Shown: positions 20,651 through 24,429 of the stretch, piece by piece
How the letters are laid out: each line of letters opens with the position of its first letter
Numbering within the stretch: the stretch's first letter is position 1
Assembly: GCA_902588635.1 (NCBI GenBank)
Contig: CACIPW010000005.1
Location: forward strand, 1-44,269
DNA length: 44,269 bases
Direction: 5' to 3'
Origin: an uncultured Pelagibacteraceae bacterium
GTDB taxonomy: Bacteria; Pseudomonadota; Alphaproteobacteria; Pelagibacterales; Pelagibacteraceae
Program-made: the position numbers and the translations under genes
The notes under the pieces: model-generated
The model's database searches: none
Told to the model about the DNA's origin: nothing
Seen by the model: only the letters and a program-made list of their open reading frames with translations

Positions 20651-21205
20651 ATGACTAAAGTAAAATTTACAGAGATGAAACATGGCTCTAAAGAAGATTA
20701 TCTTTTGCTCGAAAAACATGAGAAAGAATATATTCAAGGTACTGCTGAAAGAATAATTAAATTTATGAGTGGTCTAAATTCAACTCTTGAAGGGTATCAG
20801 GTTTCAAGATTGGAACATTCTTTACAAACTGCGACAAGAGCATTAAATGACAAAGCTGGCGACGAAATGGTTGTAGCCGCTTTACTTCACGATATAGGAG
20901 ATGAACTAGCTCCCTTAAATCATTCTGAATACGCAGCGGCTGTTTTAAAACCATTCGTGTCTGAAAAAACACATTGGATAATTGAAAAACATGGAGAGTT
21001 CCAAATGTATTATTATGCACACCACTTAGGAGGCAATAACAATCAAAGAGAAAAATACAAAGGTCACAAATATTATCAAGATACTGTGGATTTTTGTGAA
21101 CATTGGGACCAAAAAAGCTTTGATCCCAATTATAAATCTTTACCACTCAAAGAATTTGAACCAATGGTAAAAAAAATATTTTCTAGAAAACCATATTCTA
21201 GTTAA
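20651..21205 (+). CDS. HD-domain protein, PhnZ/MIOX-like metal-binding residues
   Basis: A 184-residue HD-domain protein. Visible metal-ligand candidates are H56 (RLEHSLQTA), H80 and D81 (LLHDIGD), H91 (LNHSEYAA), H114 (IEKHGEF) and D153 (CEHWDQKS). This set and order, with the LEHSLQ-n-LLHD pattern, resembles the PhnZ-type HD oxygenases that cleave organophosphonates. The fourth-position His of PhnZ (HDLGH) is D84 here, and the bridging Glu is not evident at the same place. It could therefore be a mixed-valence diiron oxygenase or an ordinary HD phosphohydrolase. It begins 2 bp after purF and ends overlapping the convergent BHMT gene by 4 bp. Confidence 0.6.
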   Translation: MTKVKFTEMKHGSKEDYLLLEKHEKEYIQGTAERIIKFMSGLNSTLEGYQVSRLEHSLQTATRALNDKAGDEMVVAALLHDIGDELAPLNHSEYAAAVLKPFVSEKTHWIIEKHGEFQMYYYAHHLGGNNNQREKYKGHKYYQDTVDFCEHWDQKSFDPNYKSLPLKEFEPMVKKIFSRKPYSS

Positions 21206-22260
21206 GCTTTAGTTCTATAATCTTTAATATGTTTTGGAATTCTTTTATTTTTCCCAAACATATAATGGTTATCCATTTTTTCTCTATACTTGCTAGCAGG
21301 AACTTTTAAACCAACTGCTTCTGCAACTTCTCTAATTAGCATTGGGTTTGCTCCACAACAAACACCTAAATAATTTATTCCTAAATCGTAAGCTTCCTTA
21401 GCAAATTTTCCAATTTCATATCTGCTGCATTGCATTGGGTCTAATGCTGTAGGAAAAGTAGTTTCGTGAGGTGTATGACAGCTACATCCATTATTATCTG
21501 GTAAATTAAAAAAAGTAGGATGAGCTTCTGTTGTTCGATAGGTGATGGGTAATCCTGCTATATGGCACTTTAAAACTTTTCTAATTTTTTTAAGGTAAGG
21601 CAACATTGTATTGGGTCCTCTATGACAATTCATCCCTACTACATCGCCTCCTTGTTGTTCTAGTTCTTTGCAAGTATCAAGAATAGAAACTTCATCTCTC
21701 ATTATATTTTGACCATATGGTGCGATTGTAATAACAGATGGAAGGCCAGTTTCTTTCATTACTTTTAATGCTGTATAAGCTTCTTCGGCATAATAAAAAG
21801 TTTCACCAATCAAAATATCCGCTCCTTCATCAACTGCCCAACCAACCATTTCTCGAAACATTTTTTCAACTTCTAATTGGGATTTTTTATCATCTTGTTT
21901 CCAAATATTTGAATTTGAAATGTTTCCTGCCATTAAATTAGGTTCTTTTCCTAATGGACTATTTGCTACATCTTTTGCAATTTGTAATGCGGCTCTGTTA
22001 AGAGGTTCTAATAATTCTTCTTTGCCAATAACACGCATTTTTTCTCTGTGACCGTTGTAAGTAAAAGCCTGTACAATATCTGATCCGGCATGTTGAAAAT
22101 CTCTATGTAAATTTAGTAGAGCCTCAGGGTTTTCCAATGAAACCATTGGAACAAACTCTCCAGAAGACATATATCCTCTTTTTTCTATTTCAAATAAAAA
22201 ACCTTCGGCACAAATAACTGGTCCTTGATTTAGTCTTTCAATTAACTCTCTTTTTTTCAT
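21202..22260 (-). CDS. bhmT: Betaine-homocysteine S-methyltransferase
   Basis: A zinc-dependent enzyme of the homocysteine S-methyltransferase family that makes methionine. Betaine (or another methylated osmolyte) is the likely donor. The 352-residue protein has the three zinc cysteines: C212 in VGMNCHRG and C301-C302 in LGVCCGANP. ETFYYAEEA and the N-terminal AEGFLFEIEKRGY are also typical. Two in-frame ATGs exist (22266 and 22260). The GGAG at 22268-22271 is only 1 nt from the first and 7 nt from the second, so 22260 is preferred. The leader carries two SAM aptamers, fitting feedback control by the pathway's end product. The nearest alternative is another donor-specific methyltransferase of the same fold. 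Confidence 0.88.
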   Translation of the reverse strand: MKKRELIERLNQGPVICAEGFLFEIEKRGYMSSGEFVPMVSLENPEALLNLHRDFQHAGSDIVQAFTYNGHREKMRVIGKEELLEPLNRAALQIAKDVANSPLGKEPNLMAGNISNSNIWKQDDKKSQLEVEKMFREMVGWAVDEGADILIGETFYYAEEAYTALKVMKETGLPSVITIAPYGQNIMRDEVSILDTCKELEQQGGDVVGMNCHRGPNTMLPYLKKIRKVLKCHIAGLPITYRTTEAHPTFFNLPDNNGCSCHTPHETTFPTALDPMQCSRYEIGKFAKEAYDLGINYLGVCCGANPMLIREVAEAVGLKVPASKYREKMDNHYMFGKNKRIPKHIKDYRTKA

Positions 22261-22267
22261 TTTCATT

Positions 22268-22271
22268 CTCC
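22268..22271 (-). promoter_or_regulatory. Ribosome binding site of bhmT
   Basis: Read on the minus strand this is GGAG, 7 nt before the ATG at 22260. It lies 7 nt downstream of the 3' strand of the SAM-V-like pseudoknot, so ligand binding there could occlude it. Confidence 0.7.
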
Positions 22272-22274
22272 AAT

Positions 22275-22323
22275 TTTAGTACTTTAGCTTTGTGCTGGGT
22301 GTACAATACGGTTCAAATACCCG
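22275..22323 (-). ncRNA. SAM-V-like riboswitch aptamer, translational control
   Basis: On the minus strand a GGGT (22319-22322) pairs with ACCC (22297-22300) around a loop containing ATTTGAACCGTATT. A GTAC immediately before the ACCC (22301-22304) can form a pseudoknot with a downstream GTAC (22279-22282), which follows AGCTAAA. The pseudoknotted layout and the AGCTAAA tail parallel SAM-II, and SAM-V has a similar architecture and is known before bhmT- and metY-type genes of Pelagibacter. The 3' pseudoknot strand is 7 nt from the GGAG, so SAM binding would block translation. The SAM-V name rests on this layout and context, not on a covariance-model hit. Confidence 0.7.
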
Positions 22324-22344
22324 GTTTTTAATTACTATTGTTGT

Positions 22345-22375
22345 AAAAAAAAACCACCGGCTAAAGCGGTGGTTT
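22345..22375 (-). terminator. Intrinsic terminator of the SAM-II switch
   Basis: On the minus strand, AAACCACCG (22375-22367) pairs perfectly with CGGTGGTTT (22359-22351) around a 7-nt loop. A run of nine T follows, part of which is in the stem. The strong GC stem in AT-rich DNA and the U tract make this a clear intrinsic terminator, located between the SAM-II aptamer and the SAM-V-like aptamer. Confidence 0.9.
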
Positions 22376-22391
22376 GAGAAGTCGCTTTAGC
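22360..22391 (-). promoter_or_regulatory. Antiterminator pairing (GCTAAAGCG with CGCTTTAGC)
   Basis: On the minus strand, GCTAAAGCG (22391-22383), the 3' end of the SAM-II aptamer, is perfectly complementary over 9 nt to CGCTTTAGC (22368-22360). The latter lies in the terminator's 5' arm end and loop. When SAM holds GCTAAA in the aptamer, the terminator can form. Without SAM the antiterminator removes it. This predicts an OFF switch. Confidence 0.85.
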
Positions 22392-22433
22392 AGGATTTAT
22401 AAAGCGCTCGCAATTTGATCTAAATCAGCGCTT
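22383..22433 (-). ncRNA. SAM-II riboswitch aptamer
   Basis: On the minus strand a perfect 7-bp P1 stem, AAGCGCT (22433-22427) with AGCGCTT (22408-22402), encloses a loop beginning GATTTA. It is followed by TATAAAT and the TGCTAAAG tail. This layout (GCGCTGATTTA, then GCGC, then ATAAAT, then GCTAAA) matches the SAM-II consensus of alphaproteobacteria. The downstream methionine-pathway gene supports the identification, as does the antiterminator in its tail. Confidence 0.85.
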
Positions 22434-22476
22434 GTAAATACATTAACATAATATAAAAATTTTTCAATAATTAATT

Positions 22477-24429
22477 ATGCCTAATCAGCTTAAAAATGAA
22501 AGAAGCCCATATTTAAAGCAACACGAAAATAATCCTGTTGATTGGTTACCTTGGAATAAAGAAACTTTAACAAAAGCTAAAAAAGAAAAAAAACCTATTT
22601 TTTTAAGCGTTGGTTATGCAAGTTGTCATTGGTGTCATGTAATGGCTCACGAAAGTTTTGAAAATAATGACACAGCCAAGATAATGAATGAAAAATTCAT
22701 TAATATTAAAGTTGATAGAGAAGAAAGACCTGATCTTGATTTTATTTTTCAAAAAAGTTTAGGAATTTTAACAGGAGCTCAAGGGGGTTGGCCGCTTTCA
22801 ATATTTTTAGATGAAAATGCTGTTCCTTTTACGGGTGGAACTTATTTTCCGCCACATGATATGGAGGGAAGACCGAGTTTTAATAAAGTTCTAGATAATG
22901 TTTCGAAAGTGTATTTAGAAAACAGAGAAAAAATTATTGCACAAGTTTCACAAATGAAAATGGTTTTTAAAGAATTAAATCTTAAAAATGCTGTTCTCAA
23001 GCAAGATTTAGAACCCTTAGCTGAAAAAATATTACAATACATGGATAAAGAAAACGGAGGATTTCAAGGAGCTCCAAAATTTCCTCAGTTTTATATTTTT
23101 GATACTATTTTATATTTTTATTTCAAAAATAAAAAAGAAAACTTTTTTAACGTAGTAGAAAAACTTTTAAAAAATATTTCATCGAAAGGAATGTATGATC
23201 AACTTGAGGGTGGTATTGCAAGATACACGGTTGATGACAAATGGATCGTACCACATTTTGAAAAAATGCTTTATGACAATATTTTGTTTGTTAAAATTCT
23301 AAATAACTTCGTTAATCATACAAATGATAATTATTTTAAAGAAAAACTAAAGCAAACTATCAGCTTTATTAATTCTGAATTTAAAAACAAAAATAATTTA
23401 CTTGGCTCAGCCTATGATGCTGATAGCGAAGGAATTGAAGGAAAATACTATGTATGGGAATATGATGAGTTAGAAAACTTATTAAAATCTGATTTAGAAC
23501 TTTTTAAAAAAAAATATGAAATTACAAAAAAAGGAAACTTTGAAGGATCAAATATTTTAATCGAAAAAGAGGAGATCAATCTTAATGATGATGAAAAAAA
23601 TAATATTAGAAAAATTGAACAAAAACTTTTACAATTAAGAAAAAAAAGAATTAAACCTTTTTTTGACGACAAAACTCAGACTGATTTAAATAGTTTTTGG
23701 ATTTATTCGATTTTGCAATCATCTTTAATTTTGGATGATAAAAATATTTACAACCAGGCAATAAATTATTTTGATAACCTTCAAGAAATACTTAAAAATA
23801 ATATTTTTCATTGCTATGATAAAAATAGAAAAGAAATAGATGTTTTTTTAGAAGATTATGCTTATTTTAGCCTACTTTTAGTTTCAATTTATGAAATAAA
23901 TAAAGATGAAAATTCTCTGAAAAAATGTTCAGAATTATTAAAAGAAATTTGGAACTTCTTTTATGATGAAGAAAACAATCTATTGCAAAAAAATATTAAA
24001 AACTCTAACGACCTTTTTGTAAAACCAATAGACATAATTGATAATAATATACCTAATGGAAACAGTGTTTTTCTCTTAGTTTGTAATAAAATATTTAATA
24101 TTACTGAAGATAGTTTTTGGAAAGACAAGATAGAAACCCTAAAAAAATCTTATCATTCCTCAATAAATAACAGTTATTCTCAGATGTTTAGCTATATAAA
24201 AATTCTAGATATTTGTGATCAAAATATTACTTTTACATTTAATGGCGATGATAAAAATCTTCAAGATATAAGAAATAAATTGCTCAAAAAATACTTTGAA
24301 AAGGCAACTTTTATATATAAAGAAAATAATAAAGAAAATTTTGTTTTAATTTGTAAAAACCAAACTTGTTCTGAAAAACTTAAAAATTTAAATGAGGTTG
24401 AAAATTATCTTAATGAAAAATCTATCTGA
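22477..24429 (+). CDS. YyaL/SSP411-type thioredoxin-domain protein (DUF255)
   Basis: A 650-residue protein with an N-terminal thioredoxin-like DUF255 domain followed by a six-hairpin glycosidase-like helical domain. The N-terminus shows NERSPYLKQHENNPVDW and the CHWCH motif (residues 50-54), the family signature. GGWPLSIFLDENAVPFTGGTYFPP is also typical (cited here as the pattern from GGWP to TYFPP). Homologues include Bacillus YyaL and human SPATA20; the biochemical role is unclear. It starts 43 bp from the SAM-II aptamer of the divergent bhmT leader. Its 3' end overlaps the next gene by 17 bp. Confidence 0.93.
   Translation: MPNQLKNERSPYLKQHENNPVDWLPWNKETLTKAKKEKKPIFLSVGYASCHWCHVMAHESFENNDTAKIMNEKFINIKVDREERPDLDFIFQKSLGILTGAQGGWPLSIFLDENAVPFTGGTYFPPHDMEGRPSFNKVLDNVSKVYLENREKIIAQVSQMKMVFKELNLKNAVLKQDLEPLAEKILQYMDKENGGFQGAPKFPQFYIFDTILYFYFKNKKENFFNVVEKLLKNISSKGMYDQLEGGIARYTVDDKWIVPHFEKMLYDNILFVKILNNFVNHTNDNYFKEKLKQTISFINSEFKNKNNLLGSAYDADSEGIEGKYYVWEYDELENLLKSDLELFKKKYEITKKGNFEGSNILIEKEEINLNDDEKNNIRKIEQKLLQLRKKRIKPFFDDKTQTDLNSFWIYSILQSSLILDDKNIYNQAINYFDNLQEILKNNIFHCYDKNRKEIDVFLEDYAYFSLLLVSIYEINKDENSLKKCSELLKEIWNFFYDEENNLLQKNIKNSNDLFVKPIDIIDNNIPNGNSVFLLVCNKIFNITEDSFWKDKIETLKKSYHSSINNSYSQMFSYIKILDICDQNITFTFNGDDKNLQDIRNKLLKKYFEKATFIYKENNKENFVLICKNQTCSEKLKNLNEVENYLNEKSI

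Follow-up and report, generated by a model that had tools for sequence, protein, structure and literature searches.

SAR11 cells number among the most abundant in the ocean, and in Pelagibacter ubique the genes most strongly raised by sulfur limitation stand behind SAM riboswitches (PMC5069961). In the genome of one uncultured member of the Pelagibacteraceae (841,086 bases, 61% complete), the stretch analysed here, 44,269 nucleotides of contig CACIPW010000005.1 and called the window below, carries a bhmT gene whose leader raises a simple question: does one RNA sense SAM twice, once to control its own transcription and once to control its translation, and if so, when can the first sensor act? 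The initial annotation had proposed two such sensors in series. The minus strand from 22467 to 22200 reads as one leader, in the order putative promoter, SAM-II-type element, antiterminator, terminator, SAM-V, GGAG and bhmT; SAM-II P1, antiterminator, terminator and SAM-V all lie on that strand where the annotation had placed them. The features are as follows.

22440 to 22467, minus strand: putative promoter, recognised by eye, with TTGAAA at 22467 and a weak extended -10 element TG-T-TAATGT
22402 to 22433, minus strand: SAM-II P1 stem and loop, AAGCGCT...AGCGCTT, loop GATTTAGATCAAATTGCG (from the sequence)
22383 to 22391, minus strand: 3' strand of SAM-II P2, GCTAAA, running on as the antiterminator strand GCTAAAGCG, inside the RF00521 match
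22360 to 22368, minus strand: second antiterminator strand, CGCTTTAGC, lying in the terminator's 5' arm and loop (exact complement; covariation)
22345 to 22375, minus strand: intrinsic terminator, AAACCACCG-CTTTAGC-CGGTGGTTT followed by a T-run (terminator scan, folding)
22265 to 22332, minus strand: SAM-V aptamer overlapping the ribosome-binding site (RF01826, 63.2 bits, cut-off 41)
22268 to 22271, minus strand: Shine-Dalgarno sequence GGAG of bhmT (from the sequence)
21202 to 22266, minus strand: bhmT, betaine-homocysteine S-methyltransferase (Pfam PF02574), start probably at 22260

The product of bhmT matches the homocysteine S-methyltransferase domain of PF02574 (E 7.7e-35) and is up to 93% identical to SAR11 homologues among the best 80 of 297. 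Since five NCBIfam methyltransferase models were found for the product and none scored above its own cut-off, assignment of the precise substrate relies on the SAR11 bhmT of the literature. The ATG at 22266 follows GGAG by 1 nt and the in-frame ATG at 22260 by 7 nt, the latter being the likelier start. The gene next upstream is divergent, on the opposite strand, and bhmT is followed by a convergent HD-domain gene. The putative promoter would start the RNA just before P1, and TTGACA or TTGAAA can be recognised by eye at the equivalent place in several relatives. A promoter scan of the region did not list this site, its sole listed site being on the plus strand.

Relatives were collected with the window protein as 80 bhmT loci (the best 80 of 297), and their leaders were located by a pattern anchored on the terminator. 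The SAM-II/terminator unit occurs in 68 of the 80, and 67 of these 68 also have SAM-V (66 by pattern, L108 by Rfam); in L082, SAM-V was found by neither. These 68 loci, Pelagibacter ubique (L118) and the window make up the 70 leaders compared below. Among the remaining 12 loci, the contig ends too early in L046, no SAM-II/terminator element was seen in L066 and L083, and nine (L100-L103, L105, L106, L109, L111 and L113) have, by eye, a lone SAM-II-like element upstream of bhmT, which in L100 scores 31.0 bits with RF00521 (cut-off 36). Eight of the nine are titled SAR86 and one is another proteobacterium; their BhmT is about 74-76% identical to that of the window, which may reflect gene transfer. 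In a wider survey, the pattern of SAM-II tail and terminator was present in 38 of 397 Pelagibacterales genomes, from 7 of 13 genera; one of the genomes, G158, retains little of the loop complement (CGCTTTCTTT).

The second sensor, whose class the initial annotation had doubted, is SAM-V. RF01826 (SAM_V, E 4.3e-8) was the sole match above a family cut-off in an Rfam search of the whole window and covers the whole length of the model. GGAG (22271-22268) lies 7 nt after P2, and the PF02574 methionine-cycle gene adjoins. The element is typical except for one P2 pair changed on both sides, from G-C to A-U with pairing kept: of 67 readable leaders, 65 have GTGC/GCAC as P2 and the window alone has GTAC/GTAC. 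SAM-V of bhmT is reported to bind SAM, at 0.5 uM by calorimetry in PMC6061858, which also gives a structure and a model of Shine-Dalgarno control, and at 120 uM as cited in PMC5069961. Some relatives place SAM-V differently. In L079, L093 and L112, 154-218 nt separate its end from the matched bhmT start, and a different ATG (ATGAGCAA...) follows it immediately; the start region at that ATG seems complementary to sequence lying farther downstream. L108 has a second SAM-V above the Rfam cut-off (1886-1950) directly after bhmT, preceding a short open reading frame and another that by eye resembles a cystathionine/OAH-type enzyme.

Assignment of the first sensor is less direct. SAM-II is an H-type pseudoknot with P1, a GATTTA loop, TTGC paired with GC(U)AA, and a short P2a. 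The window has P1, the GATTTA loop, TTGC and the GCTAAA core in that order. The RF00521 (SAM-II, SAM_alpha) match at 22441-22366 nevertheless scores 21.3 bits (E 0.011) where the cut-off is 36, so that the comparison with Rfam models proposed in the initial annotation supported SAM-V and fell short for SAM-II. In a low-threshold Rfam search of 22180-22560, SAM-II came third by E-value, after SAM-V and GcvB. The GcvB match over the leader (22.8 bits against 42, E 0.0045) outranks SAM-II, yet looks like chance and is far below its cut-off; rimP, PyrR and other low-threshold matches over the leader likewise fall far short of the cut-off and draw on the hairpin and the T-run.

The same shortfall is seen in relatives: among the 40 of the 80 loci run through Rfam, SAM-V exceeded its cut-off in 31 and the SAM-II families (RF00521, RF01726) in none. 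As a control, the published P. ubique bhmT leader had no SAM-II family listed at E <= 1, although its SAM-II is reported to bind SAM with a KD of 1.2 uM (PMC5069961, citing Poiata 2009). The Rfam models thus miss a reported SAM binder, and because P. ubique SAM-II fails likewise, we file the window element as SAM-II-type by homology and not by the Rfam rule. By this homology, and because 68 of the 80 related loci have the same SAM-II/terminator unit, a SAM-II-type element is taken to be present before bhmT. Comparison of the 70 leaders also refines its structure. The pair closing the P1 loop is standard in all 70 (T-G 27, C-G 24, T-A 19) and P2a is TC/GA in 61, TT/GA in 7, TT/AA in 1 and unpaired in 1. 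The perfect 7-bp P1 of the initial annotation is present in the window; just 16 of 70 leaders have a standard pair at its outermost position, and so the conserved P1 is shorter. A permissive SAM-II search (E <= 10) of the genome to which the window belongs was uninformative, since all 14 control genomes also gave matches and none passed the cut-off. Elsewhere in this genome, a second SAM-II-like element, again under the cut-offs (22.0 bits with RF00521, 25.8 with RF01726), immediately precedes the gene of locus L002, the product of which we take to be MetX.

What could link the first sensor to transcription is the stretch between the two aptamers. The terminator described in the initial annotation has a 9-bp stem, a 7-nt loop and a T-run; a scan of 22200-22560 listed 2 candidate terminators, the one lying within the other, where shuffled sequence would give 0.2. 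The strand GCTAAAGCG, which contains the SAM-II GCTAAA as that annotation had recognised, and CGCTTTAGC in the terminator are exact 9-nt complements. One might argue that this terminator simply ends some other transcript, or is an attenuator without regulation, and that its loop complements SAM-II by accident; the isolated terminator helix is indeed usually the more stable one (in 60 of 70 leaders, the antiterminator helix equalling or exceeding it in the other 10). Going by base composition, however, 60 nt should contain about 5e-5 such 9-mers. Furthermore, because the upstream neighbour is divergent and on the other strand, there is no near gene for this terminator to end. Finally, the complementarity is kept across loci and beats that of swapped pairs, and we consider a plain terminator extremely unlikely.

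The comparative evidence for the antiterminator is as follows. Relatives keep its strand as GCTAAAnnG. If SAM-II and the antiterminator share GCTAAAGCG, its tail is expected to covary with the terminator, and this covariation is seen. Position 8 pairs in 69 of 69 registered leaders (C-G 45, A-T 23, G-T 1), and whole triplets change together (GCG/CGC in 37, TAG/CTA in 14, ACG/CGT in 2). Nine antiterminator pairs are formed in 27 leaders, eight in 33, seven in 8 and five in 1; at least one mismatch is thus found in 42 of 69, at position 2 in 16 leaders, 7 in 11, 6 in 11, 1 in 6, 3 in 6, 5 in 2 and 9 in 1. These counts omit L082, which is out of register, and include L080 despite its poor fit, this being the leader with four mismatches, or close to that. 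The terminator stem follows in part: where its 5' base facing position 8 is T (24 leaders), the 3' partner is A in 23 and G in 1, and where it is G (45 leaders), it stands opposite C in 27, T in 1 and A in 17, so that these last 17 lack the uppermost stem pair.

The mean complementarity score was 18.4 for own pairs. Exchanging strands among loci lowered it to 15.7 (sd 0.29), with 16.7 the maximum over 200 such exchanges, and shuffling the partner lowered it to 9.1. These means include L076 and L077 at a shifted or wrong anchor; the later counts use corrected rows. The covarying changes may represent few independent events: 10 map on the best bhmT protein tree, in which the P. ubique row is partial (37% of columns), and 3 of them on well supported branches, too few pairs for a sign test to reach significance. 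On the same tree (L038-L117), antiterminator position 8 changes 10 times and the extra hairpin discussed below, scored by pattern, 11 times; leaders seem to have been exchanged between strains or bhmT lineages apart from the gene.

Which of the two helices prevails depends on how much of the RNA is considered. All folding figures given here leave out pseudoknots, ligand and kinetics. As isolated helices in the window, the antiterminator (-11.9 kcal/mol) and the terminator (-11.8 to -12.4 kcal/mol in two computations) are about even. When the stretch from SAM-II to the T-run is folded, the antiterminator is favoured in 59 of 66 leaders (L076, L077, L080 and L082 being omitted) and by 0.66 to 0.34 in the window. 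In whole-leader folding, its mean pair probability rises to 0.993 in the window and 0.997 in P. ubique. Folding of growing prefixes has the antiterminator appear at 74-76 nt, before the 3' arm of the terminator is made. Read-through is thus probably the default outcome, as far as these models go. Since the antiterminator wins in the finished RNA by folding, the first decision must fall during transcription, and since it forms before the terminator 3' arm exists, SAM must act earlier than that point.

These considerations bear on a more serious objection, namely that SAM-II is a relic, or permanently masked by the linker, and that SAM-V alone regulates bhmT. According to the account in PMC11508383, SAM-II responds to SAM when cut out, and the SAM-II domain shows little response in refolded full-length P. 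ubique RNA, as would be expected of a masked element; the strong preference for the antiterminator in whole-leader folding points the same way. A relic, however, would hardly keep its inner P1, P2a (TC/GA in 61 of 70) and antiterminator/terminator pairs, with covariation, across 70 leaders. Moreover, under sulfur limitation P. ubique bhmT mRNA rises 34-fold as well as the protein 3.6-fold, as reported in PMC5069961. A decision taken co-transcriptionally would in any case be invisible to probing of refolded RNA. We therefore find it quite improbable that SAM-II is a relic or permanently masked.

The reading that we prefer, and hold to be highly probable, is that bhmT is preceded by a two-stage SAM switch in which SAM-II controls termination and SAM-V then controls translation. 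In the scheme suggested by the sequence of this genome, the RNA would start just before P1 and SAM-II would fold first as the leader is transcribed. At high SAM, P2 would hold GCTAAAG, the terminator would form and transcription would stop about 90 nt into the leader. At low SAM, GCTAAAGCG would pair with CGCTTTAGC on emergence, ahead of the terminator 3' arm, and the polymerase would read on. If SAM is bound by the read-through RNA, the SAM-V pseudoknot is predicted to fold and hide GGAG, blocking translation; otherwise the ribosome would bind and BhmT would be made.

A further consequence would be that formation of the antiterminator puts SAM-II out of use, leaving SAM-V alone to sense SAM on the finished mRNA. 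The antiterminator would then be a one-way latch, saving the transcript and erasing the SAM-II pocket, so that the first sensor is only briefly available; to the latch, together with the third step that the extra hairpins of relatives would add, we give an even chance. If true, it would explain the published silence of SAM-II in full-length RNA. DNA oligos covering the linker restore the SAM-II response, and PMC11508383, which terms this loss "linker-mediated inactivation", says that it remains puzzling and leaves the question open. From the silence of SAM-II in the refolded full-length RNA of that study, it follows that the first stage can work only during RNA synthesis. The modelled whole-leader folding agrees with both the insensitivity and the recovery reported there, and the antiterminator pair would offer a simple explanation of them.

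Some relatives carry an additional element that is absent from the window. After SAM-V, 26 of the 68 tandem loci and P. ubique have a Shine-Dalgarno/anti-Shine-Dalgarno/Shine-Dalgarno hairpin pair (L038-L041, L043, L047, L049, L050, L053, L055, L059, L060, L076-L078, L081, L085, L086, L088, L089, L104, L107, L110, L115-L117 and L118, the last being P. ubique). These 27 comprise every leader in which SAM-V precedes the matched bhmT start by 60-110 nt (actual distances 72-98 nt), and their order is the SAM-V GGAG, an anti-Shine-Dalgarno sequence (mostly CTCC), a second GGAG or GAGG, and ATG. As the anti-Shine-Dalgarno sequence can pair with the first or the second Shine-Dalgarno sequence, the two hairpins are mutually exclusive. 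The stretch folds more stably than shuffles in all 27 (z below -2; mean z -4.4). Bare helix lengths are a weaker signal: with G-U pairs and simple shuffles, 29-30% of shuffles reach 8 or 7 pairs. With Watson-Crick pairs and dinucleotide shuffles, the first arm has at least 9 pairs in 9 of 27 (1.0% of shuffles) and only 5-6 in 7 of 27, and the second arm at least 7 pairs in 18 of 27 (4.3% of shuffles). The hairpin pair was found in none of the 16 SAM-V loci read among L008-L037, the other 14 of these 30 being unmatched by the forward-strand pattern. A third switching step after SAM-V is possible in these relatives.

The P. ubique bhmT tandem was reportedly treated by Poiata et al. 2009 (RNA 15:2046), a paper known to us through those that cite it. 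As the initial annotation had stated, the class is known in SAR11: a SAM-II/SAM-V riboswitch upstream of P. ubique bhmt is listed in Table 1 of PMC2704228, and reports for SAR11 bhmT are also found in PMC5069961 and PMC9481103. Taken with the sequence and the relatives, these sources bear out the proposed series of two aptamers, one followed by a terminator and the next covering the ribosome-binding site. This tandem on bhmT, read as transcription and then translation control, has already been in print since 2009, and the window is a further copy. The present analysis adds the comparative evidence behind the antiterminator and proposes a simple cause of SAM-II inactivation in full-length RNA. 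The window contributes a clean copy of this known two-stage switch that can be tested directly, and the covariation of the P2 strand with the terminator points to specific mutations by which the apparent inactivity of SAM-II in full-length RNA could be examined.

Compared with P. ubique, the window has the same gene, the same order, a terminator between the aptamers and an antiterminator of which P. ubique forms 8 of 9 pairs. In P. ubique, however, SAM-V ends 78 nt before the ATG with the extra hairpin in between, whereas SAM-V of the window sits directly on the bhmT Shine-Dalgarno sequence; and osmC and ordL have the next locus numbers in P. ubique (Table 1 of PMC5069961), where the window has the convergent HD-domain gene. 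In its count of tandems, PMC9481103 gives 149 of the SAM-II/SAM-V type and states for the original 120 that a terminator invariably follows SAM-II and that control of the ribosome-binding site invariably falls to SAM-V. With SAM-II (by homology), a terminator and SAM-V over the ribosome-binding site of a single gene, the window arrangement differs in nothing of kind from the bi-mechanism tandems as that paper describes them.
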